From contig JAODGH010000056.1 in NCBI GenBank assembly GCA_025464325.1, forward strand, positions 1-40,282: a stretch of 40,282 bases of DNA, written 5' to 3'. Source of the DNA: Methanosarcinales archaeon. Lineage in GTDB: Archaea; Halobacteriota; Syntropharchaeia; Alkanophagales; Methanospirareceae. Below the pieces are notes generated by a model, which saw nothing but the letters and a program-made list of their open reading frames with translations, was not told the origin of the DNA and searched no databases. This document shows positions 1,402-16,008 of this stretch, piece after piece. How positions within the stretch are numbered: the first letter of the stretch is position 1; each line of letters begins with the position of its first letter. A program made the position numbers and the translations under genes.

Positions 1402-1445
1402 CTTCTCAATTTTGGAAGTAACAAAAAAATCAAAAGATTTATATG
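1402..1445 (+). promoter_or_regulatory. Promoter with palindromic operator, copy 1 (shared with 5030-5073)
   Basis: The 19-base element CTTCTCAATTTTGGAAGTA (1402-1420) contains an imperfect palindrome (CTTC..AA.TT..GAAG). It is followed by an A-rich spacer and the TATA box TTTATATG (1438-1445). The same 19 bases recur at 5030-5048 with identical 36-base spacing to the next TATA box. Over 45 bases the two copies differ at only six positions. The element sits upstream of the TATA box, where archaeal activators usually bind. A second small palindrome, GTGGTAGACCAC (1447-1458), lies just downstream of this TATA box only. Confidence 0.7.
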
Positions 1446-1518
1446 TGTGGTAGACCACTAAAGGTGGAATAATATCTGCAAGTAAAAATAAATAGAAAGG
1501 AGGGAATAAAAGAGGAAA

Positions 1519-1587
1519 ATGGAACTGGAGTTAGTAACAACCACCAGTGGTGAGCAAATTTGTATGAGGAGGGAAGGACAGAGATGA
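1519..1587 (+). CDS. Possible 22-codon leader peptide
   Basis: A short reading frame starts at ATG 1519 behind purine-rich AAAGGAGGG and GAGGAAA sequences. It runs 22 codons to a TGA at 1585-1587 that overlaps the ATG of the binding-protein gene (ATGA at 1584-1587). That overlap is the usual form of translational coupling. The peptide is polar, contains one Cys and resembles nothing I know. The frame also spans the palindrome CACCAGTGGTG (1542-1552). It may be a regulatory upstream frame or chance. Confidence 0.3.
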   Translation: MELELVTTTSGEQICMRREGQR

Positions 1588-3158
1588 TGCGGAAGATCGC
1601 TATCATTGCGGTATGCATGGTATTGCTCGGCTGTGTAATGGCGGGCTGCATAGAAAAAGAGCCGCAACAGGCAGCCAGTACAGAGCAGGGTGCCGTAAAA
1701 CAATCGCTCAAAGTAGGAGAGATGTGGAGTATCCGTTCAGTGGATCCTGCGAAGAGTGGCTCCCTGATGAAAGAGAAGGCGATGATCGTTGAGACACTGG
1801 TCGGAGCCAACCCGGATTTTACACTCAAGCCATGCCTTGCTGTGTCATGGGAACGGATAAATGACACACAGTGGAGGTTTCATCTGAGGAAGGGTGTGAA
1901 ATTCCACGATGGAACGGATGTTACAGCAGAGGCGGTAAAATGGTCAATTGAACGGGTTTTAAATATGAATCCGGCGGTGAAAGCGTTAACACTGATAAAA
2001 TCCATTGATGTTGTCGATGACAGTACACTGATATTCACAACGGAAGAGCCATACGCCGCTTTTCCCGCGTCACTGGAATATTCAAACCTTGGGATAGTAA
2101 GCTCTACTTCTGAGATGGATGACAAGGGCGTTATAGTAAAGCCCATTGGGACAGGACCCTTCAAATTTGATCGATTCGATGTGGCAACCGGTACGTTATA
2201 CCTGTTGAGGAACGACAATTACTGGGGAACAAAACCAAAACTCGAGAGTGTGATCATCCAGGGTATTCCAGATCCGGCATCTCGTGCAATGAGTGTGGAG
2301 AAGGGGGAGGTAGACTTCACCTGCGATGTACCCTACGGTGACATTGAACGGCTGAGGGCAACTCCGGGATTGCATGTAGAGGTACACCCAACAGCCCGGG
2401 TGTATCAGTTGACATTCGGTAATCTCACAGGAACGCCGTACAGTGATTTGCGTGTGAGGAAAGCGATAAGCTATGCGATCGATCGCACGGTGATAAGCAA
2501 TAATACGCTGCATGGCTGTGCGGCACCAGCCATAGGTCCCGTGATGCCTTCCATGGCATGGTTCAACCGTGATACAAAAGGCTATCCTTACGATCCGGCG
2601 AAGGCGAAAGAACTGCTTGCCGAGGCAGGATGGGTAGATACTGATGGAGATGGCATAGTGGAGAAAGACGGCGAAGAATTTAGTGTGACTTTGTATACGT
2701 ACCCGCAGAGACCCGGACTCCAGCCAATGGCTGAAGCGATTCAGGCTATGCTGAGCGACGTGGGCATCAAGGTCGATATCAGGGTGATGGAGTTCAGTGC
2801 CATAGCAGAGCACATGACCGACCGCGACATGAAACTTTCAGCATATGCGCTGGCGATGGTACCAGATCCTGACTACTATCTCAGGAGGATATACCATTCT
2901 AAAGGCGCATACAATGCATGGGGATACAGCGATCCAGAAATGGACTCACTGCTTGAGGAAGGACTGAGAACTTTTGACCCGGATAAGCGACGGGAGATAT
3001 ATAACAGGGTGCAGGAGAAAGCTCTTGATGAGGTGCCTCTGATTCACGTGGCGTACTACAAAGTTGCGGTCGTTATGCGTGATAACGTCAAAGGTTTTGT
3101 CTTCAACCCGATCGCGCATGACTACATGCTGAATCCCGAGATGTATATAGAGGATTAG
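1584..3158 (+). CDS. ABC transporter solute-binding lipoprotein (SBP_bac_5; peptide/nickel type)
   Basis: About 524 residues from ATG 1584, chosen over an upstream TTG because GAGGAGGG lies about 10-15 bases before it. The N-terminus is a lipoprotein signal: basic MMRK, a hydrophobic stretch, then VMAGC with the lipidated Cys. Family 5 hallmarks follow: LAVSWERINDTQWRFHLRKGVKFHDGTDVTAEAV, IGTGPF, IPDPASRAMSVEKGEVD, and VRKAISYAIDR. The protein would sit outside the membrane and hand substrate to the two permeases encoded next. Family members carry oligopeptides, nickel or metal chelates, and the sequence alone does not decide among them. No ATPase gene follows this set. The shared operator with the CooC operon suggests nickel. 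Confidence 0.88.
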   Translation: MMRKIAIIAVCMVLLGCVMAGCIEKEPQQAASTEQGAVKQSLKVGEMWSIRSVDPAKSGSLMKEKAMIVETLVGANPDFTLKPCLAVSWERINDTQWRFHLRKGVKFHDGTDVTAEAVKWSIERVLNMNPAVKALTLIKSIDVVDDSTLIFTTEEPYAAFPASLEYSNLGIVSSTSEMDDKGVIVKPIGTGPFKFDRFDVATGTLYLLRNDNYWGTKPKLESVIIQGIPDPASRAMSVEKGEVDFTCDVPYGDIERLRATPGLHVEVHPTARVYQLTFGNLTGTPYSDLRVRKAISYAIDRTVISNNTLHGCAAPAIGPVMPSMAWFNRDTKGYPYDPAKAKELLAEAGWVDTDGDGIVEKDGEEFSVTLYTYPQRPGLQPMAEAIQAMLSDVGIKVDIRVMEFSAIAEHMTDRDMKLSAYALAMVPDPDYYLRRIYHSKGAYNAWGYSDPEMDSLLEEGLRTFDPDKRREIYNRVQEKALDEVPLIHVAYYKVAVVMRDNVKGFVFNPIAHDYMLNPEMYIED

Positions 3159-3187
3159 GAGATGCGGATGGCTGCTGAGGGGGGCAG

Positions 3188-4138
3188 ATGCTTGGGTACA
3201 TTGCAAAACGAACAGTAATAGCAGTGTTCGTGGTATTTGCCACATCCGCACTCACTTTTTTTCTACTCTCTCTTATTCCTGGTGAGACAGCCGTAACGAT
3301 TATACAGCGAGTATTTGTCGGAGATGTTACTTATAATCCGTCACAGGCGGAGATTGAAGCGACAGAACGGATGTTTCAGCTCGGTAATCCCCTGTGGATA
3401 CAATACCTGCAATGGCTGGACAATGCAGTACACGGTAATTTTGGAACTTCTTACATCTCGGGGAGACCCGTGTTAGAAGAGATATTGGTCAGATTACCGG
3501 CAACGGTCGAGCTGGCAATTGCCGCGATGGTGGTATCGCTTCTCATAGCCATACCCCTCGGTGTAATCTCCGCGGCAAAACAAAACTCGAAGACAGACTA
3601 TTTTAGCATGGCTATCGCGACATTCTTCATAGCCATGCCGAATTTCTGGCTGGGGCTCATCCTTATCCTGATATTTTCACTGCACCTCGATTTATTGCCA
3701 GTGGCGGGATATGGGGGTCTTGACCATCTGATACTCCCGGCTATCACGCTGGGTGCAGGTATGATGGCAGTAACGGTGCGCTTAACGAGGTCAAGTGTGC
3801 TGGAAATACTGCGATTGGACTTCATAACAACAGCAAGAGCAAAGGGTGTGGACGAAAAACGGATCCTGTACAGGCATGTACTTAAAAATGCAATGATACC
3901 CGTAGTAACCATAGCAGGTCTGCAACTCGGCTACTTACTGGGAGGAACAGTCATCGTTGAGACGATTTTTGCATGGCCGGGCATCGGGAAACTACTGGTT
4001 GATTCGATAGAGGCTAAGGATATACCAATAATTCAGGGTTGTGTGGTTTTCATAGCGATAATATTCTCTCTGGTGAACCTGCTCGTGGATATCTCCTACT
4101 ATTTCCTTGATCCAAGAATAAAATATGAGAGGGTGTGA
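3188..4138 (+). CDS. ABC transporter permease, DppB/NikB type
   Basis: 316 residues with about six membrane helices. The N-terminus MLGYIAKRTVIAVFVVFATSALTFFLLSLIPGE is the typical DppB start, ending in the IPGE/APGD motif. The cytoplasmic coupling loop, TTARAKGVDEKRILYRHVLKNAMIP, is the EAA motif that contacts the ATPase. The C-terminus DISYYFLDPRIKYE is also characteristic. It starts 29 bases after the binding protein and its stop touches the start of the next permease. It should pair with the next gene to form the channel. With no local ATPase it must borrow one, plausibly from 14130-16008. Confidence 0.9.
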   Translation: MLGYIAKRTVIAVFVVFATSALTFFLLSLIPGETAVTIIQRVFVGDVTYNPSQAEIEATERMFQLGNPLWIQYLQWLDNAVHGNFGTSYISGRPVLEEILVRLPATVELAIAAMVVSLLIAIPLGVISAAKQNSKTDYFSMAIATFFIAMPNFWLGLILILIFSLHLDLLPVAGYGGLDHLILPAITLGAGMMAVTVRLTRSSVLEILRLDFITTARAKGVDEKRILYRHVLKNAMIPVVTIAGLQLGYLLGGTVIVETIFAWPGIGKLLVDSIEAKDIPIIQGCVVFIAIIFSLVNLLVDISYYFLDPRIKYERV

Positions 4139-5020
4139 ATGACAGCTTACGGCATCAAACGAACGAGTATTTTTGCTGATAATCGGTATCTACGCATCTT
4201 GAAGCAGAAATCGGTGGTGACAGGCTCGATGTTAATTCTTGGATTGATGTTTCTCGCGATTTTTGCTCCACATCTGACTATTTATGACCCTATTAAAGTG
4301 GATCTGCACAATAACATCCTGCCACCATCGTGGGAACACCCGTTTGGAACAGACAATCTGGGGAGAGATGTGTTTACCCGGGTTGTTTACGCAACAAGGA
4401 TAGACCTCTTAGCGAGTCTCTTCATCGTGGCATTATCCGTGATCATCGGGCTATTAACGGGAATATTCGCGGGTTACTATGGCGGAATTATAGACAAGAT
4501 GCTCATTGGTATGATGGATACTTTCCTCGCGCTACCCGAGATAATTCTGGCGCTGGTACTCGTCGGCGCTCTTGGACCCAGTATATTTAATGCAGCGTTA
4601 GCCCTGGCTCTATTTGGATGGGTGAGATACGCAAGGGTTTCGAGGGGTTTGACACTCTCGATAAAGGAGAAGGAGTTTATAGAAGCAGCAAAAGCAGTGG
4701 GAGTTGGAGACTTTTATCTCATTGCCCGTCATATTATACCAAACGCCATTGCTCCTATATCGACCCTCGCAGCACTACATCTCGGACACGCGATCTTATC
4801 ACTTGCAGCACTGGGCTTTTTGGGTATGGGTGCTCAACCTCCGATGCCTGAATGGGGCGCTATGCTAAACGAAGGCAGGGTGTTCTTGAGGGTGGGATGG
4901 TGGCTGTCAGTATTTCCGGGATTGATGATCATGATCACGGTTTTGGGCTTTAATCTGCTCGGCGATGGTTTGCGGGACGCATTGGATCCAAGATTGAGAC
5001 AGCTAATGTCGATGAAATGA
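4139..5020 (+). CDS. ABC transporter permease, DppC/NikC type
   Basis: 293 residues, about six helices. The N-terminal LITIYDP-like segment and the PFGTDNLGRDVFTRVVYATR motif are DppC hallmarks. The coupling loop is IEAAKAVGVGDFYLIARHIIPN, and the C-terminus has NLLGDGLRDALDPRLRQ. The ATG directly follows the TGA of the preceding permease, so the two are co-translated. This is the last gene of the first transporter unit, and the next promoter begins 10 bases after its stop. It is clearly homologous to the permease at 13291-14133, for example in the shared SIKEKEFIE and GLMIMITVL stretches, so the two transporter sets are paralogues. Confidence 0.9.
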   Translation: MTAYGIKRTSIFADNRYLRILKQKSVVTGSMLILGLMFLAIFAPHLTIYDPIKVDLHNNILPPSWEHPFGTDNLGRDVFTRVVYATRIDLLASLFIVALSVIIGLLTGIFAGYYGGIIDKMLIGMMDTFLALPEIILALVLVGALGPSIFNAALALALFGWVRYARVSRGLTLSIKEKEFIEAAKAVGVGDFYLIARHIIPNAIAPISTLAALHLGHAILSLAALGFLGMGAQPPMPEWGAMLNEGRVFLRVGWWLSVFPGLMIMITVLGFNLLGDGLRDALDPRLRQLMSMK

Positions 5021-5029
5021 TGTAGTACC

Positions 5030-5073
5030 CTTCTCAATTTTGGAAGTATTAAAAAAATAGAAAAACTTATATG
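5030..5073 (+). promoter_or_regulatory. Promoter with palindromic operator, copy 2 (shared with 1402-1445)
   Basis: The same 19-base element as at 1402 (here 5030-5048) is followed after an A-rich spacer by the TATA box CTTATATG (5066-5073). The expected transcript start is near 5097, leaving a leader of about 105 bases. Within that leader is AGGAGGT (5133-5139) followed by a three-codon frame (ATG 5142, stop 5151-5153), before the true ribosome-binding site of the surface protein gene. This promoter would drive the 13-gene unit to 17707. Confidence 0.7.
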
Positions 5074-5203
5074 TTCCATCAGCAATAAGCGCCTAATATG
5101 TCACTTTTTGCAAATAAAAATGCGATAAATACAGGAGGTATATGACAGAATAAAACTATTTAGCCCGAATTTGCAGAAAGTGATGAGAAGGAGGTATAAA
5201 AAA

Positions 5204-7477
5204 ATGGCATCGAAGATATGGAAAATATGTATGGCTGTCGCTCTGGCATTTGCAGTGCTGGTCATACCGACTTCTGCATCGGTAATCAGTGCAACGCAGC
5301 AGAAGCTAAGTTATGGGCAGAGCTTCATCGTCAATTACAACAATATCTCCATCAAGCTGGATGGCATAGATGCAAACGTGATACTCGGTCAGGATATCCA
5401 GTTCTATGATGAAAACGGCAGAAAAGTTGCCGGCAGGGTGATACTGGAGAGACAGAGTGATGAGAACAAAGGCGAAACTGTATCGTCGGATTCTAATGGA
5501 TGGTTTGACACAAGACTATTGAACAATACGGGGAATTACACTGCTACATGTCCGGATTGCCAGTCCGTACAGCCCACTACAATACATGTAGGCACAACGA
5601 AGATAATTTTAGAGTTGAAGAAGGGCACTTCCACGATCTCAAGTGTGTCGCAGGGCTCTCACTTCACGATAAAGCTCACGACCTCGTTAGATGCAAACGA
5701 TGGTGTGAGTCTGAAGGTGAAGAACCCGGATGGAGACACAGTAAAGAAAAATCCTGCAGATGGAACGGTGTTTGATGGTGTTAACGTGAGTTATCTCCAG
5801 AATCTTGATATAAATACCACCGGGTGGGAGATCGGAACGTATACGTTCCGGGTTTCTACGAGCGAGACCAAAGCACGGGGCTTAGTGCTGAAGAGCGAAG
5901 AAAAGACGCTGGAGATTGTGAAGCCTTCTATAGAGATAAAAGCGGAAGAAACAACTGTGGGTGTGGGTGAACCAGTAAAACTGACCGTGACGGGTGTGCC
6001 GGGTCATAATATAACGGTTACCGGTGGGCAGTACGCATTATTCCCCGGTGGTGTGAACAACAACCCTTCAAATGATACTATTGACACATTCACCCACAGC
6101 ATAGGCAGCGGCGGTAAAAGGACCTATACTGTTATTTTCAACAAAACCGGGTCACACAAGGTCAAAGTGACAGATACTGACAGCGGTAAAGAGGACACGG
6201 TGGATATATCCGTAGTGAAGCGGAAAGTAACATTTTACATGCCCGATACCTGTGTGATCGGCGATGACCTCGTGATCAATGGTACTGCAACGGCGGGAGA
6301 TACGGTAGATATCGCGATTGATGACGTGATCGTGATGACCGATATTGTGATCGATGACAATGGTAACTTTAAAGAGGATTTACCAACGCCAGATACACGG
6401 GGGACGGGGGTAGAAGGAGACATCGAGATAGAAGCGTTTATAGACAAGAATTTTGTGGTGGGGCAGCATGTTGGTGATTTCAGTGACGATGGTTTTATTA
6501 TCGTATCGATGGTAAAAGGCGGTTTAACCGCGGAGTTATCTTCCGGGTTTGCTGCACTCGGTGATAGTTTCATAGTCAATGGTACTGCACCGGGTTCTGA
6601 TGCGGTAGATATAATCACCATTGCTCCGCGCGGTGGTGGAGGAAAGGGTATAGACCCTTCCAATTCAGCACTAAATGGACTACCCTCCGGGATTACTATC
6701 GAGACAGTATCCACCTCTGGCGATGATTTCTCATTCTCAGCCGAGATCGATATTCAAAAGAACGCGGATAGCGGCATTTATCTCGTGTTTGTGCTAACTC
6801 CGGGCAAGGATGGCGAGTACGGTATGCTCGGTACCGACAATTTGTTCGAAGGTATAAAAAGAGAGTATGCCGGCGGCGACCTGAAAAATCTTGCTGCGAA
6901 GACGCAGGAGCAAATACGAGACATAATAGCGGATGCAACCATAGGAGCTGCGGGCAGCGATGACTTTGTGCGAATGTTAGAGCTGAAGATAGGAGAGAGG
7001 ATGGTACGGCTTGATCCCGTTGCAGATGTGGTAGCTGGCAGTGATCTCATCATTACGGGCATATCGAACCGGGAGGGACGATCAATAAAGGTGAGTGTGA
7101 GAGGTCCATCAGATCTCGGAACAAAGACCGTGGTGGTTACAAAAGGCGTATTTAGTGCGAAGTTCAATACTACGGGTGCATTACCGGGCAAATATACTGT
7201 GGTGGTGGATGACCGGGACGATCATACAGACACTGCGAGTGTAAATATAACAGCAGGTGAGAGTAGCACTGCAAAAACACCAGTTCCTACAGCAACGGTG
7301 GAAGCAACACCAACACCTACACCAGCACCTGCGCAGACAACCACTCCAGTACCAACACAGACACCTGCACAGACTTCAAATATGCCGGGCTTTGAGACGG
7401 TGTTTGCCATTATGGGTATGATGATAGCAATTGCTTTTGCGGTTTTTGTTGCGAAAAAGAGAGGTGGTGAGAGATAA
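5204..7477 (+). CDS. Secreted surface protein with PGF-CTERM anchor
   Basis: 757 residues from ATG 5204, chosen because AAGGAGGT (5188-5195) is 8 bases upstream; a TTG at 5171 would add 11 basic residues. The signal peptide is KIWKICMAVALAFAVLVIP ending TSAS. The body is rich in beta strand, with repeated Ig-like segments such as VKLTVTGVPGHNITV, DLVINGTATAGDTVDIAIDD and SFIVNGTAPGSDAVDI. Many N-x-S/T sites suggest glycosylation. A Thr/Pro-rich stalk follows, then MPGFETVFAIMGMMIAIAFA and a basic KKRGGER tail. That is the PGF-CTERM signal processed by archaeosortase A, which attaches proteins to the membrane lipid at the cell surface. It heads the nickel-type operon, so surface metal capture or scaffolding is possible, but no metal-binding motif is evident. 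Confidence 0.85.
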   Translation: MASKIWKICMAVALAFAVLVIPTSASVISATQQKLSYGQSFIVNYNNISIKLDGIDANVILGQDIQFYDENGRKVAGRVILERQSDENKGETVSSDSNGWFDTRLLNNTGNYTATCPDCQSVQPTTIHVGTTKIILELKKGTSTISSVSQGSHFTIKLTTSLDANDGVSLKVKNPDGDTVKKNPADGTVFDGVNVSYLQNLDINTTGWEIGTYTFRVSTSETKARGLVLKSEEKTLEIVKPSIEIKAEETTVGVGEPVKLTVTGVPGHNITVTGGQYALFPGGVNNNPSNDTIDTFTHSIGSGGKRTYTVIFNKTGSHKVKVTDTDSGKEDTVDISVVKRKVTFYMPDTCVIGDDLVINGTATAGDTVDIAIDDVIVMTDIVIDDNGNFKEDLPTPDTRGTGVEGDIEIEAFIDKNFVVGQHVGDFSDDGFIIVSMVKGGLTAELSSGFAALGDSFIVNGTAPGSDAVDIITIAPRGGGGKGIDPSNSALNGLPSGITIETVSTSGDDFSFSAEIDIQKNADSGIYLVFVLTPGKDGEYGMLGTDNLFEGIKREYAGGDLKNLAAKTQEQIRDIIADATIGAAGSDDFVRMLELKIGERMVRLDPVADVVAGSDLIITGISNREGRSIKVSVRGPSDLGTKTVVVTKGVFSAKFNTTGALPGKYTVVVDDRDDHTDTASVNITAGESSTAKTPVPTATVEATPTPTPAPAQTTTPVPTQTPAQTSNMPGFETVFAIMGMMIAIAFAVFVAKKRGGER

Positions 7478-8214
7478 TGGTAAGAAGGAAAACGGCTATG
7501 CTGGGATTGATGGCGCGGGGGCATGAAATATGGCTTGAGAAAAGAGAGATAGCGGACGGTAATGTGGAGCTGGCGTTACTATACGGGCACAACATGCGCG
7601 CAGACGGACTCGTGGACCAGGAGCGAGTGACTCCCATCGTTTACTCACCGGATGGTAAGAGGCTCAATCCCCAGCTGACAGCCAGAGAGGACCATTATAT
7701 ACTGACGTTTCAGGCTGAAAAGGGTGGATATTACACTGTAATCGCAGATCTCTCTTCCGTTGTGCTGTCGCAGACCGAAGAAGGCTATCAGGTCGGTCCG
7801 AAGTTCAAGTTCAAGGATGTGATTTATGCGGGTGCTTACCATCAGATGGCAAAGAGGATAGTTAAAATCGGTGATGCTGGCTCGTATCATGGTGAACTCG
7901 TGCACGGGATACTCGAGATTGTACCAGAGAAGATAGAATGTGAGGTGGGTAGTGAGGTTGAACTGACGGTATACTATGAGGGTGAGAGACTATCGTCAGT
8001 GGAGGTGAAAGTGGTACCGAAGAAGCGAGGTGAAGCGCTGGATATGGTTACGACCGATGGAAACGGGATTGCTAAGATTCCCATCACGGAGGTGGGTGAA
8101 TGGATGTTTCTGGTACGACATAGAGACCCCACGAAGAGGGTCAGTGAAGAATATGACGAGTCGGTATTCGTGAGCACACTGGTCCTGGAAGCGACTGAGC
8201 GGAGGGCTGAATGA
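7477..8214 (+). CDS. DUF4198/NikK-like protein
   Basis: 245 residues. The N-terminal pattern HEIWLEKREIADGNVELALLYGHNMRADG matches the DUF4198 family ('H.FWLEP...v.l.l.yGH'), whose members include NikK, an extracytoplasmic component that accompanies nickel/cobalt transporters. A second beta-rich domain (IECEVGSEVELTVYYEGERLS, then TTDGNGIAKIPITEVGEW) has the carboxypeptidase-regulatory/Ig-like look of the family C-terminus. The residues H(16), H(55) and H(120) are possible metal ligands. No clear signal peptide precedes the HEIWLE segment, which is unusual for a family normally exported. The start overlaps the TAA of the surface protein and the stop overlaps cooC. Nickel linkage is inference from family and context. 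Confidence 0.65.
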   Translation: MVRRKTAMLGLMARGHEIWLEKREIADGNVELALLYGHNMRADGLVDQERVTPIVYSPDGKRLNPQLTAREDHYILTFQAEKGGYYTVIADLSSVVLSQTEEGYQVGPKFKFKDVIYAGAYHQMAKRIVKIGDAGSYHGELVHGILEIVPEKIECEVGSEVELTVYYEGERLSSVEVKVVPKKRGEALDMVTTDGNGIAKIPITEVGEWMFLVRHRDPTKRVSEEYDESVFVSTLVLEATERRAE

Positions 8215-8975
8215 AGAAGATAATTGTTACGGGTAAGGGCGGAGTGGGAAAGACAACAGTGATAGCAACGCTCGCACGACTACTGGCGAGGGAGGATAAT
8301 AAGGTTCTGGTGGTGGATTGTGACCCGAGCATGAATCTTGCGATGACGCTCGGTGTCCCACTTTCCGCCGTCATGCCGATCGCGGAAGAGAGGGCGAACA
8401 TCCATGAGGAGCTGGAGACGAGTATGGATGATGGGCATGAGGAGATTGAGGGTCTGATAGACGAAATTATCGATGATTACATAATTGAAACGGATGACGG
8501 AGTGAAGCTGATCGTGATGGGAACGATCCCATATGGCGGATCCGGCTGTTTGTGTTCATCCATTGCATTGCTGAAGCTTTTGATCGGGTATATCCGATCA
8601 GAGGAGCACGATTTCGTGATGATTGATTCTCAGGCAGGGGTTGAGATCTTTGGCAGGGGTCTGGCATCAGAGTTCGACTTCTCACTCGTCGTTACAGAAC
8701 CGATGCCCAAAGCGATAGAAGTGGCAAGGCATATTCTGAAACTGTCGAAGGACCTGGGTGTTAAGAGACAGATTGTGATCGTGAATAAGGTAGAAGATGA
8801 TACAGATTATGCCGGAATTTCACGACAGCTGGGGTGCAGTGAGGTGTATCCTGTACGATACGATCATAGAGTCATAGAAGCGGATAAAAAAGGGGTCTTA
8901 ATACTCGATTATGTGCCACAGGCACCGGTTGTCGATGATGTGAAGAGGATAAAAGAAGAGATAACAGGGGTTTGA
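8211..8975 (+). CDS. cooC: CooC-type nickel-insertion ATPase
   Basis: 254 residues of the MinD/ParA-like SIMIBI class. It has the deviant Walker A KGGVGKTT (residues 9-16), VLVVDCDPSMNLAMTLG as switch I, and FVMIDSQAGVE as Walker B/switch II. The decisive feature is GGSGCLCSSIALLKLLIGY (109 onward): the C113-x-C115 motif is where CooC dimers bind nickel across the interface. CooC hydrolyses ATP to load nickel into the C-cluster of carbon monoxide dehydrogenase. It overlaps the DUF4198 gene by four bases and is followed 7 bases later by cooT. No CODH structural gene lies in the window. Its placement inside a transporter operon rather than beside CODH is notable. Confidence 0.9.
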   Translation: MKKIIVTGKGGVGKTTVIATLARLLAREDNKVLVVDCDPSMNLAMTLGVPLSAVMPIAEERANIHEELETSMDDGHEEIEGLIDEIIDDYIIETDDGVKLIVMGTIPYGGSGCLCSSIALLKLLIGYIRSEEHDFVMIDSQAGVEIFGRGLASEFDFSLVVTEPMPKAIEVARHILKLSKDLGVKRQIVIVNKVEDDTDYAGISRQLGCSEVYPVRYDHRVIEADKKGVLILDYVPQAPVVDDVKRIKEEITGV

Positions 8976-9187: not shown

Positions 9188-10012
9188 ATGCCCGATGCGA
9201 AACATAAAATAAGGAACTACTGGAATAGGAGGTCATCAACATTTGACCGTTCCCCGGGCCATATCATAGGCAGTATCGATGAGAAAGAAGCATGGATATC
9301 ACTTTTTCGTGAGAAGTTCGGCAGCAGGGTGCGAAAAGTACTCGATGTGGGCGCGGGAACCGGCTTTCTTTCGCTTATACTGGCTGAGATGGGCTATGAT
9401 GTGGTTGGCATAGACATCTCAGAAGAGATGTTAGAGCATGCGAGGAATAAAGCGGCAGATCGAGGAGTAAAGGTGGAGTTCAAATTGGGTGATGCAGAAG
9501 ATTTGCCATTTAAAAATGATTCTTTCGACGCCATCGTGAATAGAGCAGTTCTGTGGACTTTACCGGATCCTGAGAAGGCTGTAAGGGAATGGAAACGCGT
9601 GTTAAGACCCGGGGGGATACTGTGTTTCTTCCTCCATGAGCCACATCAGGGTGGTCTAACACAACGTTTACGGCGACAACTCGGTAATATTCTGATCCTC
9701 TTTTTAGAGAGGCGGAATCCATGGCATTCTCTCTATGATGGTAAGTTGGGTGTGGATCTTCCTTTTAGAGGCGGTGTAGAACCTTCAGTAATAACGAAAC
9801 TTTTAGAGGATGCTGGTTTTGAACATGTCTCTGCCGAGTCAATGCACGAAATAAACAGGTTAAAAGTCACAAATATGCCCTTATGCTACAGGATAGCTCA
9901 CGGTAACCATACTCAATACTGTTATACTGCCGTGAAACCGGAATCAGGAGGTGTAAGCGATTACAGGTATTCCATAATGAACGGAACCCGGGTTGATTAT
10001 AGGGAGGGATAA
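9188..10012 (+). CDS. Class I SAM-dependent methyltransferase 1
   Basis: 274 residues. SAM-binding motif I is VLDVGAGTGFLSLILAEMGY (about 51-70), the acidic motif II is VVGIDISEEMLEHAR, and GDAEDLPFKNDSFDAIVNR gives motifs III-IV (Methyltransf_11 type). The C-terminal half is clearly similar to the methyltransferase at 11580-12326: LILFLERRNPWHSLYDGKLG here against LILITEHRIPCHGHYDRDME there. The acceptor is unknown. Both genes flank a NikA-like binding protein inside a nickel-type transport operon, so modification of a small metal-binding molecule is a possibility, not a demonstration. The C-terminal tail beyond about residue 250 is extended relative to its paralogue. Confidence 0.82.
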   Translation: MPDAKHKIRNYWNRRSSTFDRSPGHIIGSIDEKEAWISLFREKFGSRVRKVLDVGAGTGFLSLILAEMGYDVVGIDISEEMLEHARNKAADRGVKVEFKLGDAEDLPFKNDSFDAIVNRAVLWTLPDPEKAVREWKRVLRPGGILCFFLHEPHQGGLTQRLRRQLGNILILFLERRNPWHSLYDGKLGVDLPFRGGVEPSVITKLLEDAGFEHVSAESMHEINRLKVTNMPLCYRIAHGNHTQYCYTAVKPESGGVSDYRYSIMNGTRVDYREG

Positions 10013-10018
10013 AATGAG

Positions 10019-11578
10019 ATGCTAACAAAAGGGAAGAAAATTGGTATTATGCTGGTATGCGTGATATTTTTGTGCAGCATAATGGTGGGTTGCATAGAAC
10101 GGAAAGAGCAGGAGGGGGTTACTTCCGCTTCGAGCCAGATATTGACGATTGGATATGGAAGAGATACAAATGTGGAATCACCGAAAATGATGGGCTTTAT
10201 GCCGGAGATGATGGTTCTGGAGAGGCTAATAGAATACAGAGATGGTAAGATACTGCCAGAATTAGCAAGTTCCTGGGACATCAAAGATAACGGCAGGACG
10301 ATAATCTTCCATTTAAGGAGTGGCATTAAATTCTCGGATGGACAACCGTTCACCGCTGACGATGTAAAATTCACTTTTGAGCGTTTAAAAGCATTGAAAT
10401 ATTATCACTGGACTGAAGCTGATCGGATAGATAGCATAGAGGTGATAGATCCGCACACGATAGCGTTTCATTACAAGGAGGGTAAAGAAGGATACATCGC
10501 ATTGACTGCTTTTGGCGAGTACCATTGTAGCATTATGAGTCCCGCATCGGTTGAACCAAAAGGAGATGTCAAAGGAAAGATCGTGAATCCCATAGGAACA
10601 GGTCCATGGAAGGTGGCGGAATATGTAAAAGATCAGTATACGATATTCGTACCAAATGAGCTATATCGTGGCGAGAAACCGAAACTGGACAAGATTATAG
10701 TCAAGGATATACCAGATGCCGAAACAAGGGTTCTGGCTCTCAGATCCGGTGATGTGGATATGATAGTTGATTATTATCATGGTGGTTCCAGATATACACC
10801 CAGAAATTCGTTAGAACCTTTGAAGAGCGCGGGTTTCAATGTATTCAAATGCGAGATGCCGATGACCACCGTGATCGTGTTCAATTACCATAAAAAGCCG
10901 TGGGACGACGTGAGGGTCAGGAAAGCAGTAAATTATGCGATCGATAAAGAAGGAGTCTCAGCACTATTCGATAACTGGGTGGCACCAGCAAAACACGGAT
11001 TGTATGGGGTAAAAGGACCATACATTAAAGAGTCTAATGTGGAGGAGTATCCTTACGATGTAAATATAGCAAGAAACTTACTTGAGGAAGCGGGGTATAA
11101 AGAGCTGGAAGCCGACCTTATACTGAAAGGGGAGAATCCCGATGAGGTCAAGCTTGGCGAATTTATACAGGCGCAGTTGAAGAAAGCAGGGATCAATGTG
11201 AAGCTGGACGTACTGGAGGGTGGCGCATATAACGAGCGGAGGAATAAAGGAGATTATGATCTCAGGATATACTACATAGGCGGTCCTGAGAGGAGAAGTT
11301 ACACGAGGACGGATGGTAGATTTAATCCCGACGCCCCGGAATTCAAATACGGTGCATATGATGACCCTGAGCTAACAAGAGTTCTTAAGATAGCTGTATC
11401 ATCATTCAACGATAGTGAGCGTCGCAAAGCTTTCAAAGAGTTTTATCAACTGCTACATGATAAGGCGGGTGTTGTACCACTATACTACGATGCGGTGTTT
11501 ATTGTGGCGAATAAGAAAGTGAGGGGCGTCAAGTATGTGAGTTCCGAACCACGTTTTACCGGTGTCTGGATAGAATAG
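10019..11578 (+). CDS. NikA-like ABC solute-binding lipoprotein (SBP_bac_5)
   Basis: 519 residues. The lipoprotein signal is KGKKIGIMLVCVIFLCS ending SIMVGC. Family 5 motifs are LASSWDIKDNGRTIIFHLRSGIKFSDGQPFTADDVKFTFE, NPIGTGPWK, DIPDAETRVLALRSGDVD, and VRVRKAVNYAIDK. The IGTGPW and PD..TRVLALRSGDVDM stretches resemble NikA more than dipeptide-binding DppA, which favours nickel or a nickel chelate. It is flanked directly by two paralogous methyltransferase genes and followed by its own permeases and ATPases. Compared with the binding protein at 1584 it is a paralogue, not a duplicate. Transporter class is sure; substrate is inferred from similarity and from cooC/cooT in the same operon. Confidence 0.88.
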   Translation: MLTKGKKIGIMLVCVIFLCSIMVGCIERKEQEGVTSASSQILTIGYGRDTNVESPKMMGFMPEMMVLERLIEYRDGKILPELASSWDIKDNGRTIIFHLRSGIKFSDGQPFTADDVKFTFERLKALKYYHWTEADRIDSIEVIDPHTIAFHYKEGKEGYIALTAFGEYHCSIMSPASVEPKGDVKGKIVNPIGTGPWKVAEYVKDQYTIFVPNELYRGEKPKLDKIIVKDIPDAETRVLALRSGDVDMIVDYYHGGSRYTPRNSLEPLKSAGFNVFKCEMPMTTVIVFNYHKKPWDDVRVRKAVNYAIDKEGVSALFDNWVAPAKHGLYGVKGPYIKESNVEEYPYDVNIARNLLEEAGYKELEADLILKGENPDEVKLGEFIQAQLKKAGINVKLDVLEGGAYNERRNKGDYDLRIYYIGGPERRSYTRTDGRFNPDAPEFKYGAYDDPELTRVLKIAVSSFNDSERRKAFKEFYQLLHDKAGVVPLYYDAVFIVANKKVRGVKYVSSEPRFTGVWIE

Positions 11579-11579
11579 A

Positions 11580-12326
11580 ATGAATGCGAAGGAGATCATA
11601 AAGGACGAGTGGAACCGGTTAGCCCGGGACTTTGATGATAAGGCGGGTCATGGAATCCGCACAAAGGAAGAGGAAGAGGAGTGGATAAAGCTGTTGACTG
11701 CTGCAATTGGTAAGAATCGGCTGAAAATACTGGATGTGGGGTGCGGTACCGGTGTGATCACACTGCTTCTTGCGAAGATGGGGCATTATGTGACAGGAGT
11801 CGATATATCCGAGCGAATGTTGGAAAGAGCACGGGATAAAGCAAAGAGCATAGCGGTTACGGTGAAGTTCGAGTTGGGAGATGCAGAAGACCTGCCATTC
11901 AAAGACGAAGTTTTTGACGTTGTGATTAATAGACACCTCCTATGGACAATGCTAAACCCCGAGAAAGCTGTAATCGAGTGGAGAAGGGTTTTAAAGCCCG
12001 GAGGTAAGGTTATAATAATCGATGGTATGTGGAATACATGGACACTGCCCAGACGAATCTGGCGTCTCCTTGCTGCACCCCTGATATTGATCACAGAGCA
12101 TCGGATCCCCTGCCACGGTCATTACGATAGAGATATGGAGAAGAAGTTACCGATGAAGCAGAGTAAACGCCCTCAGGCGGATATCGAGCTCCTTGAGCGA
12201 TGCGGTTTTGTGGACATTAACGTGACCAGGGTAGAAATTCCGATAAGCAGAACGTTCATCGAACGGCTGAAGTATGGTTACTGGAATAATGACAGGTTCT
12301 TGTTAAGTGCGACCAGGTCGGAATAA
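11580..12326 (+). CDS. Class I SAM-dependent methyltransferase 2
   Basis: 248 residues. Motif I is ILDVGCGTGVITLLLAKMGH, motif II VTGVDISERMLERAR, and GDAEDLPFKDEVFDVVINR follows. The FKLGDAEDLPFK-type block is almost the same as in the methyltransferase at 9188-10012, so the pair arose by duplication and diverged mainly in the C-terminal substrate region. The start codon is one base after the TAG of the binding protein, and the permease follows after 3 bases, so it is co-translated with transporter parts. The acceptor is unknown. Two methyltransferases interleaved with a nickel-type importer is the oddest trait of the operon. Confidence 0.82.
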   Translation: MNAKEIIKDEWNRLARDFDDKAGHGIRTKEEEEEWIKLLTAAIGKNRLKILDVGCGTGVITLLLAKMGHYVTGVDISERMLERARDKAKSIAVTVKFELGDAEDLPFKDEVFDVVINRHLLWTMLNPEKAVIEWRRVLKPGGKVIIIDGMWNTWTLPRRIWRLLAAPLILITEHRIPCHGHYDRDMEKKLPMKQSKRPQADIELLERCGFVDINVTRVEIPISRTFIERLKYGYWNNDRFLLSATRSE

Positions 12327-12329
12327 AAG

Positions 12330-13262
12330 ATGAAGAGGTACATCGCAAAAAGGCTGCTCTTGCTAATACCGATCATGCTTGGGGCATCCATGCTCTCTTA
12401 CTCTATCCTTTATCTTGCACCTGGAGACCCCGCTGAGTTGATGCTCGAGAGACAGCTGCAGGGTGTCCCCACTCAGGAACAGATAGAGGCATTCAAAGAG
12501 GAGCATGGACTAAACGCGCCCATTCCAATACAGTTTGCAAACTGGCTTTACAGGATACTACATGGCGATTTTGGTATATCACTTAGAACCGAAAAGCCAG
12601 TACTGACAGAGTATTTGAATAGATTCCCCGCCTCTCTTGTTCTATTTCTTATGTCACAGACCCTCTCTATCGCTATCGCGATTCCTCTTGGCATCATATC
12701 TGCGGTAAAACACAATTCGGAGATAGATCATCTCTCACGATTCGTGGCGATGATTGGCGTTTCTGTACCGAACTTCTGGCTGGGGTTGCTCTTAATTCTC
12801 TTCTTTGCCGTTTATTTGGGCTGGCTTCCTGCCTTTGGCTATGGTGGTTTTGCACACCTGATCCTGCCGGCGTTGGCTCTGGGTGTATCAGGCTGTGCAT
12901 CTATCATGCGACTGATGAGAGCAAGTCTGCTTGATGTTTTAAATCAGGATTATATCAGAACAGCGAGAGCTAAGGGTCTGTGTGAAAGGGCTATTATAGT
13001 GAAGCATGCTTTAAAAAATGCCCTTATACCCGTCGTAACTGTTATTGGATTACATATCGGGCATCTTATTTCGGGTATGGTAATCATCGAGACCATATTT
13101 GCCTGGCCCGGAGTCGGGAGATTTCTGGTTGAATCGATACATGCAAGGGATTTTCCGGTAATTCAGGGTTTTGTATTGCTCATTGCGATGATATTTGTCT
13201 TTTCCAACCTGATCGTGGATATTTCATATACATACCTGGATCCCAGGATAAGGTATGAGTAG
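12330..13262 (+). CDS. ABC transporter permease, DppB/NikB type
   Basis: 310 residues with about six helices. MKRYIAKRLLLLIPIMLGASMLSYSILYLAPGDPAE is a textbook DppB/NikB N-terminus. The coupling loop is RTARAKGLCERAIIVKHALKNALIPV and the C-terminus is DISYTYLDPRIRYE. It pairs with the permease at 13291. It is homologous to 3188-4138, with shared YISGRP/LRTEKPVL region and FWLGL and FAWPG stretches. The gene starts 3 bases after methyltransferase 2. The substrate is the one delivered by the lipoprotein at 10019. Confidence 0.92.
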   Translation: MKRYIAKRLLLLIPIMLGASMLSYSILYLAPGDPAELMLERQLQGVPTQEQIEAFKEEHGLNAPIPIQFANWLYRILHGDFGISLRTEKPVLTEYLNRFPASLVLFLMSQTLSIAIAIPLGIISAVKHNSEIDHLSRFVAMIGVSVPNFWLGLLLILFFAVYLGWLPAFGYGGFAHLILPALALGVSGCASIMRLMRASLLDVLNQDYIRTARAKGLCERAIIVKHALKNALIPVVTVIGLHIGHLISGMVIIETIFAWPGVGRFLVESIHARDFPVIQGFVLLIAMIFVFSNLIVDISYTYLDPRIRYE

Positions 13263-13290
13263 GATAACATGAGGTAGCATTAACAGAGAG

Positions 13291-14133
13291 ATGAACGATA
13301 GCATTCATCAGCTTAAAAGGGATAAAATGGCAATGATCGGAATGATGATAATAGCTATTCTTACCTTTATTGCGATATTCGCGCCATATCTGGCACTGTA
13401 TGATCCGCTGGAAGTAAATATGGCGGATCGCTTACAGATGCCAAATGAAAAGCACCCGCTGGGAACTGACCAGCTGGGCAGGGATCTCTTAAGCAGGCTC
13501 GTCTATGCGACACATGTTTCAATAACGGCAGCTGCACTGGCTACATTTATGATTATGACCCTTGGCGTGACGATAGGGGCAATTGCAGGGTATTTCGGGG
13601 GTATCGTCGATCAAGCAATAATGCGTATAGTGGATGTGCTATTATCCTTCCCCAGCTTGATTCTGACAATAGCGATTGCAGGCATTTTGGGTCCCTCACT
13701 CATACACCTTGTAATTGCAATGACCGCCACAGGCTGGGTAGGTTATTCGAGAATAATTCGTGGTTCTGTTCTGTCTATAAAAGAAAAAGAATTCATAGAG
13801 GGTGCGAGAGCGCTGGGATTTGGCAATTTGTATATCATCACCCGCCATATTATACCAAACGTCATCTCGCCCGTGATTGTAATTGCAACTATAGATATGG
13901 GACACATAATACTATCTATTACCGGATTGAGTTTTCTGGGTCTGGGTGCGCAACCTCCCACTCCAGAATGGGGTACGATGCTCAATGAAGGAAGACCCTT
14001 TATGGAGACGGCACCACATTTGATGATATTCCCGGGATTAATGATCATGATCACGGTATTAGCCTTCAACTTCCTGGGTGACGGTTTAAGGGATGCACTG
14101 GATCCGAGGATGCGAGAGGTGATGATGAAATGA
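13291..14133 (+). CDS. ABC transporter permease, DppC/NikC type
   Basis: 280 residues, about six helices. The N-terminal MIGMMIIAILTFIAIFAPYLALYDP and HPLGTDQLGRDLLSRLVYATH stretches are DppC/NikC hallmarks. The coupling loop is IEGARALGFGNLYIITRHIIPN and the C-terminus is NFLGDGLRDALDPRMRE. The stop overlaps the start of the next ATPase gene by four bases (ATGA), so translation is coupled to the ATPase. It is closely related to the permease at 4139-5020, which lacks its own ATPase. Confidence 0.92.
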   Translation: MNDSIHQLKRDKMAMIGMMIIAILTFIAIFAPYLALYDPLEVNMADRLQMPNEKHPLGTDQLGRDLLSRLVYATHVSITAAALATFMIMTLGVTIGAIAGYFGGIVDQAIMRIVDVLLSFPSLILTIAIAGILGPSLIHLVIAMTATGWVGYSRIIRGSVLSIKEKEFIEGARALGFGNLYIITRHIIPNVISPVIVIATIDMGHIILSITGLSFLGLGAQPPTPEWGTMLNEGRPFMETAPHLMIFPGLMIMITVLAFNFLGDGLRDALDPRMREVMMK

Positions 14134-15071
14134 CGGTGTTGAGCATACGAGGTTTAAAGGTGTATTTCTCTACGGAAGATGGTATTGTGAAAGCAGTGAA
14201 CGGTGTTGATCTGGACATAGGAGAGAACGAGACGCTTGGATTGATCGGTGAGACGGGATGCGGTAAAACGGTATTGGGGCTATCGATACTGCGATTACTC
14301 TCCGAGAACACGGTAGTGGAGGGTGAGATCCTGTACAGGGGCATGGATCTGCTCAAACTCAGTGAGGAGGAGATGAGGAAGATAAGGGGAAAAGAAATAG
14401 CAATGATCTTTCAAAATGCATTGACCTCGATGAATCCGGTCCTCACGGTAGGAACACAGGTTTCCGAGCCTTTTGAACTGCATCATGGCTTAAGAAGGAG
14501 GGACGCGTTAATGAAAGCGATAGAGATGTTGAAGTTAGTGCGAATATCGTCACCATCGGAGAGAGTGAAAGAATATCCTCACGAATTCAGCGGTGGAATG
14601 AGGCAGAGAGCGATGATTGCTATGGGACTCGCCTGTGAACCCTCATTGATAATTGCAGATGAGCCGACCACGGGTCTGGATGTAACGATACAGGCGCAGG
14701 TGGTAGAACTGATGAAAGAACTAACGATGAGATCCCGAACCTCCATGTTGCTGATAACCCATGACCTCGGAGTAGCCGCAGAGTTGTGCGATAATATTGC
14801 AGTAATGTATCCCGGCGAAATCGTTGAATATGCGAATACAGTGGAGATATTCAAAAACCCCAAACATCCGTACACACAGGGTTTCCTTGATTCTCTTCCG
14901 GGCAGGGGCTTAAAGCCGATGGAGGGCATGAGTCCGTCCCTGATTAATCTCCCGGAAGGCTGTAAATTCCACCCAAGATGCCCTTTCGCGTTAGAACGGT
15001 GTAAGCGAGAGCACCCGAGGATGGTGGAGATAGGTAATAACCATCAGGTGAGGTGTTTCCTCTATGATTAA
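14130..15071 (+). CDS. ABC transporter ATPase, DppD/NikD type
   Basis: 313 residues. Walker A is GETGCGKT, the signature is [13 protein letters not shown], Walker B is [12 protein letters not shown], and the switch histidine is in LLITHDLG. The C-terminus has the oligopeptide/dipeptide ATPase extension with the cysteine-rich [20 protein letters not shown], the region that in some family members binds an iron-sulfur cluster. It overlaps the permease by four bases and the next ATPase by eight. The two ATPases form the heterodimeric motor for permeases 12330 and 13291, and are the only candidates in the window to power the permeases at 3188-5020. Confidence 0.92.
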
Positions 15072-16008
15072 AGTGGAGAATCTGAAGAAATATTTCTCGA
15101 CCGGTATATTCGGAAAAAAATACGTCAGAGCAGTAGATGGTGTCAATTTTGAGATTAAGTACGGAGAAACGCTTGGTCTGGTAGGTGAAAGCGGTTGTGG
15201 CAAGACCACGGTTGGTAGATTACTTCTACGGCTGATCGAGCCCACGGAAGGTAAAATATATTTCAAAAACACGAACATTATTGAACTGAGTAAGAAGGAG
15301 TTGAGACGGTTGAGACCAAAGATGCAGATAATATTTCAGAATCCTGACACATCGCTTGATCCGAGGATGAAGATAGGGGAAAGCATTGCAGAGCCAATTA
15401 AACTTTACAAAATCGTTAGTAAAGATAAGATAAATGAAAAAGTGATGGAACTCATTGATACGGTTGGACTGAACCCGGAACACGTAAACAGGTACCCGCA
15501 TGAGTTGAGTGGCGGTCAGAACCAGAGGGCGGTAATAGCACGCATTCTTGCAATAAATCCGGAGTTCATAGTTGCCGATGAACCCACTTCGTCACTCGAT
15601 GTGAACGTACAGGCTCAGATCCTATCATTGCTAAAGAACTTAAAGGATAAGTTCGGACTTACATGTCTATTCATCTCACATGACCTGGAAGTAATAAAGG
15701 TGATGACCGATGAGATAGCGGTGATGTATCTGGGTAAACTGGTGGAGATGGGTAAGACGGTGGACATATTTAACGGTGCGAGACATCCGTACACGCAGGC
15801 GTTACTATCGGCAATTCCTGTGCCTGACCCCGATGCGAAACGTAAAAGAATCCTTCTGCCTGGTGAAATCCCGAATCCAATCAATCCACCAGCCGGTTGC
15901 AGATTCCATACCCGGTGTCCGTACCGCGAGAGGATATGCGAGATGGTTGAGCCAGAGATGATCGATATTGGGGGAGGACATAAAGTAGCCTGTCATTTAA
16001 ATCATTAA
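15064..16008 (+). CDS. ABC transporter ATPase, DppF/NikE type
   Basis: 314 residues. It has Walker [10 protein letters not shown], signature [15 protein letters not shown], Walker [13 protein letters not shown] and switch FISHDLE. The signature is LSGGQ, the canonical form, whereas its partner has SGGMR. The C-terminal cysteine-rich segment is [16 protein letters not shown] with a further Cys near the end (VACHL), as in its partner. The start lies inside the 3' end of the DppD-type gene. Start and spacing leave no doubt that it is the second motor subunit of the same importer. Confidence 0.92.

Follow-up and report, generated by a model that had tools for sequence, protein, structure and literature searches.

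The window, i.e., the whole stretch of 40,282 nucleotides analysed here, carries upstream of two operons a short sequence which reads as an ANME-1-specific upstream promoter element and which is present 5' of mcrB in nearly all ANME-1 genomes containing that region. The architecture at mcrB consists of TCTCAWTTTTGG, 16 bases and GAAARNYTTWTA. The element is probably a family-specific upstream activating sequence of ANME-1, near-universal at the mcrB promoter and in the window also placed on a NikABC-type transporter operon and on an operon coding for an S-layer-like protein, a DUF4198 protein and a CooC-type ATPase.

In the sea, the anaerobic oxidation of methane begins with MCR of ANME archaea, which are without a pure culture. 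Very little work has addressed the control of MCR expression, even for methanogens (PMC11267899). Here, the well-delimited cis element present at mcr promoters across the family represents a bait for its putative factor, allows other targets of this factor to be predicted from sequence alone and opens a direct test of a coupling between MCR synthesis and nickel supply. Within open-licence papers, no description of the element was found.

Both copies of the 19-mer CTTCTCAATTTTGGAAGTA, located at 1402–1420 and 5030–5048, lie on the same (+) strand and are identical in 19 of 19 positions, as the original prediction had stated. They are intergenic, each 5' of an operon, and their family-conserved parts span 1402–1416 and 5030–5044, respectively. 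The agreement of 39 of 45 bases between 1402–1446 and 5030–5074 was reproduced, and the same likeness was recovered as a repeat without gaps, exactly 45 nt long. On the same strand follow an A-rich stretch, a BRE-like region and a TATA box, which cover 1425–1445 for the first copy (BRE-like approximately 1432–1437; TATA TTTATATG, 1438–1445) and 5051–5073 for the second (BRE-like approximately 5060–5065; TATA CTTATATG, 5066–5073). Each TATA-like octamer begins 36 bases after the element start, which is the predicted spacing, and the core-promoter offset at both sites equals the one in ANME-1 mcrB promoters.

The paired-site observation is real and far beyond chance. In 100 shuffles of the window, zero matches to the 19-mer at ≤3 mismatches were obtained. 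At the same threshold, the whole assembly of the window genome (1.42 Mb, 94% complete, 59 contigs) contains the two window sites only, with none in the backwards control; many unrelated copies, which according to the original prediction would speak against it, were not seen. The further sites that had been sought near CODH/ACS, hydrogenase or cobalamin genes are absent from the assembly, both in this ≤3-mismatch scan and in the model search described below. A simple duplication had been argued against already, and indeed the likeness between the two regions stops at 45 bp. The remaining repeats in this cluster of the window are coding, with the permeases of the two transporter sets being paralogous, and therefore the shared promoter is not a by-product of a larger duplication.

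The connection to mcr comes from the relatives. An early scan using the raw 19-mer with 3 mismatches gave mostly noise outside the family, where control matches were about as frequent, and its lead was CATCTCAATTTTGGAAGCG in genus g10, directly 5' of mcrB and followed at an equal distance by a similar A-rich stretch and a TATA box. A search of the 51 family genomes then placed mcrB in 41 of them, and the upstream DNA was read where present. Nearly every region read displays [CAGT][AT]TCTCA[AT]TTTTGGA, a spacer of variable sequence and then AAnCGAAAAGCTTTTAAGT, with an element consensus of approximately 15 bp, C[AT]TCTCA[AT]TTTTGGA; divergent forms occur at mcrB in g9, g11 and G036. In an alignment of 33 mcr promoters over 45 columns, 16 columns are invariant. 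Conservation reaches 1.68 bits per column within the element, 1.43 within the BRE/TATA part and 0.1–0.5 in the flanks, figures which are weighted by genus and, as relatives share ancestry, not fully corrected for kinship.

A sequence-only model, R1, was trained without the window on the 33 mcr (mcrB) promoters, which stem from other ANME-1 genomes. Its top match in the window genome is 5030–5074 (32.9 bits, E 7.7e-8) and its second match is 1402–1446 (26.9 bits, E 5.7e-6), followed by a third one of 20.3 bits, which covers columns 21–43 only and corresponds to an ordinary BRE/TATA. Furthermore, the element, the 16-bp gap and the GAAARNYTTWTA core are matched exactly at 5032–5071, and 1404–1443 is an exact match to the looser mcr-promoter pattern.

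An exact scan of 84,980 prokaryote species genomes with the pattern TCTCAWTTTTGG-N11-AWA-NN-RAAARNYTTWTA revealed 25 matches, all in ANME-1, 22 of them before mcrB and 3 before other genes; in viral contigs the exact pattern was not found. At ≤2 mismatches, the 51 family genomes yielded 61 matches (by our count 39 mcr promoters and 22 others) against 0 in the backwards control, and R1 had no match at E ≤ 1e-5 in a further 146 genomes from the phylum, among which 2 belong to the same order and 5 to the same class. With a free gap of 1 to 31 between TCTCAWTTTTGG and GAAARNYTTWTA, 27 of 28 exact matches showed a gap of 16 and one a gap of 17. The distance from the element to the start codon takes 19 different values, whereas its distance to the TATA box is constant. 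The spacing to the core promoter and the specificity results therefore tie the element to the core promoter and to the ANME-1 family.

Approximately 1 to 5 sites are present per family genome, numbers which are lower bounds since the MAGs are fragmentary, and in the majority of relatives the element occurs at mcr only. The non-mcr carriers in relatives comprise a CARDB protein with an RND-type transporter, a DUF7847 membrane protein, a C25-like peptidase, cohesin, and further LamG-like, PLD-like, CbiX and Panacea genes. These targets are mixed and mostly membrane or surface/secreted proteins. Conservation in relatives, which the original prediction had called for, holds for mcrB across the family but not for the operons of the window itself: at the loci sampled in relatives, the element was found upstream neither of homologues of the transporter binding protein nor of homologues of the surface protein.

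The operon downstream of 1402 encodes a NikABC-type transporter. It comprises, all on the + strand, a NikA/Opp-type substrate-binding protein as first gene (1584–3158; Pfam SBP_bac_5; NCBIfam Opp5A_nikA, 313 bits, cut-off 600), a NikB-type permease (3188–4138; NCBIfam NF045470, nickel ABC transporter permease, 368 bits, cut-off 350) and a NikC-type permease (4139–5020; NF045474, 296.4 bits, cut-off 300). Judged by the curated NCBIfam cut-offs, NikB lies above, NikC slightly below and the NikA-type binding protein well below, and the putative nickel annotation of the transporter is backed by NikB. The set is without an ATPase gene. A second, complete Ni/peptide-type transporter set is located at 9188–16008, with two SAM-methyltransferase genes interleaved (9188, 11580). 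The paralogous transporter genes with the two ATPases, at 10019–16008, are without the element, and the two ATPases may serve both transporters. In the 1402 leader (1500–1590), GGAGG is followed by a 22-codon frame, MELELVTTTSGEQICMRREGQR, whose end overlaps the start of the first transporter gene.

The operon downstream of 5030, likewise on the + strand, starts with a secreted S-layer-like protein (5204–7477; NCBIfam S_layer_MEMAR, E 2.9e-18, below the cut-off), whose PGF-CTERM-like tail was read from the translation, and continues with a DUF4198 protein (7477–8214; Pfam PF10670, E 2.7e-24) and a CooC-type nickel-insertion ATPase (8211–8975). For the latter, the earlier assignment of the P-loop ATPase to CooC was supported, since the closest solved relative is CooC1 (top PDB match 3kje, E 3.8e-29) and the CxC metal-binding motif is aligned. 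Within the 5030 leader (5135–5160), a frame of three codons, ATG ACA GAA TAA, follows GGAGG.

In the assembly of the window genome, mcrB and mcrA of the mcrBGA operon were not found; mcrC is present. An assembly gap is likelier than a true loss of mcrBGA, because in several genus mates, too, mcr is confined to the ends of contigs. Co-regulation of the two window operons with mcr in this organism would accordingly be drawn from the relatives and from the presence of mcrC.

Mechanistically, the element would lie at approximately −65 to −50 from the expected transcription start, 16 bp 5' of the GAAAR part of the BRE/TATA core. A putative sequence-specific factor, either an activator or a specialised general factor, would bind the 15 bp and most likely recruit or stabilise TFB/TBP, and binding of this factor would result in a higher promoter output. 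In the window genome, the same module is predicted to drive both the NikABC-type set and the S-layer-like/DUF4198/CooC operon, and nickel uptake and insertion would thereby come under a control common with the nickel enzyme MCR. A site upstream of the BRE is the usual place of archaeal activators, e.g., EarA and Ptr2 (PMC5512572). The element shares with archaeal upstream activating sequences a location 5' of BRE/TATA at a fixed spacing, the occurrence at several promoters and the conservation in relatives. The activator suggested in the original prediction is supported by this position, as a site that precedes BRE/TATA at a constant distance and in a constant orientation fits an activator better than a repressor. 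As regards the single regulator proposed for both operons, one promoter module is common to both, but a private nickel/CODH operator is unsupported, because the main bearer across the family is the mcr operon.

Similar arrangements are known from other archaea. The EarA sites in the fla operon promoter of Methanococcus maripaludis are short like the element and lie immediately 5' of the BRE; they are needed for transcription and are recognised by an activator dedicated to a single operon (PMC5512572). In contrast to these four 6-bp repeats, the ANME-1 element is a single asymmetric 15-bp sequence at one fixed spacing, belongs to another clade and has a putative factor. The Ptr2 sites of Methanocaldococcus jannaschii, as described in the same study (PMC5512572), are likewise 5' of the BRE and Ptr2 recruits TBP; here multiple binding sites are present, whereas the ANME-1 element is single and asymmetric and its factor putative. 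The ara-box of Sulfolobus solfataricus (outlined in PMC5512572) is also located immediately 5' of BRE/TATA and is bound by an unidentified factor; it is sugar-responsive and found in another phylum, and is likened to the ANME-1 element by position.

A dyad operator was considered for the element and rejected. The window 19-mer resembles an imperfect palindrome; its symmetric positions are not conserved in the 33 mcr promoters, where 2 of the 8 (columns 5–13 and 6–12) never pair and two more pair in <40%.

How far the nickel theme carries has to be weighed against simpler readings. Nickel is the common denominator of MCR, NikABC and CooC, and a regulon devoted to this metal is possible. The stronger proposal, that ANME-1 has a dedicated mcr transcription factor which reads the element and in the window lineage also sets nickel import and insertion, is a tentative one; if true, cofactor supply would be tied to the synthesis of the methane-activating enzyme. 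A regulator-free high-strength extension of the core promoter would look alike. Such a general extension, which lifts a few very highly expressed genes (MCR, surface-layer/secreted proteins, transporters) without any nickel-type signal, is a serious rival and a quite plausible one, although we would not put it at even chances. It would agree with the mixed carriers in relatives, with the S-layer-like surface protein as first gene of the 5030 operon and with the mcr operon reported as constitutive in Methanosarcina acetivorans (PMC11267899), yet it would be expected before many highly expressed genes and not at the approximately 1–5 sites per genome. The confidence in this reading overlaps with that in the upstream activating sequence, because both make the element a functional part of the promoter.

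An operator read by NikR or another metal sensor of this kind, which would govern MCR, NikABC and CooC jointly in response to nickel, appears unlikely. Each of the three operons has to do with nickel, be it in the window or in relatives, in the relative G020 the element precedes a CbiX-type chelatase, and NikR operators would likewise join nickel transporters in one regulon. However, NikR sites have been published as inverted repeats of 27–28 bp, GTATGAT-N13/14-ATCATAC (PMC545781), a form which the asymmetric 15-bp element lacks, so that a NikR site was rejected, and most other carriers are without a nickel link. Slightly less credit still is given to a promoter capture, in which an mcr promoter was recently copied into positions 5' of both operons with no shared regulation of interest. 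The identity of the copies (39 of 45, 19 of 19 in the element) would suggest such an event; against it, the window sites resemble each other more than they do the mcr promoters within their genus (29–35 of 45), the copies show no similarity past 45 bp, and the distal TCACAAnnnGTATGA repeat of mcr promoters was not seen near the window sites. Finally, the conserved orientation would also suit an RNA element within a leader whose transcription starts at a more distant 5' position, but the conserved part ends in a canonical BRE/TATA and it is the TATA distance that is fixed and the start-codon distance that varies, which makes this explanation highly improbable. The upstream activating sequence is the reading that we prefer.

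The mcr promoters of the relatives display additional features. In many of them (e.g., L102, L104 and L113), the inverted repeat TCACAAnnnGTATGA is located approximately 45–50 bp 5' of the proximal element and is possibly a separate operator; near either window site it was not found at ≤2 mismatches. The mcrB leaders (e.g., of G004, G006, G002, G020 and G011) contain a short stem-loop between the TATA box and the ribosome site, in which the pairing seems to be kept while the letters vary (GCCTTTTAAGGC, GCCCTTTAAGGGC, ACCCAAAATGGGT, CACCCAAAAAGGGT); the loop of G002 is longer. Two different mcrB promoters are present in one assembly each in G048 (C69 and C155) and G034 (C69 and C19), which reflects either mixed strains or a second mcr copy. 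For the ANME-1 genus represented by G60ANME1, the group has been reported from hydrothermal vents (PMC9576274).

Some weak matches (L226, L227) had suggested a link to formate dehydrogenase, which was dropped because these matches have a degraded left half of the element. At L214 (G020:C92), the element lies 5' of the gene for the CbiX-type chelatase, and in the genus mate at L211 (G009:C208) it lies 5' of a DsrE-like gene; the same ligase-like gene comes next at both loci, i.e., the promoter is shared and the first gene differs.
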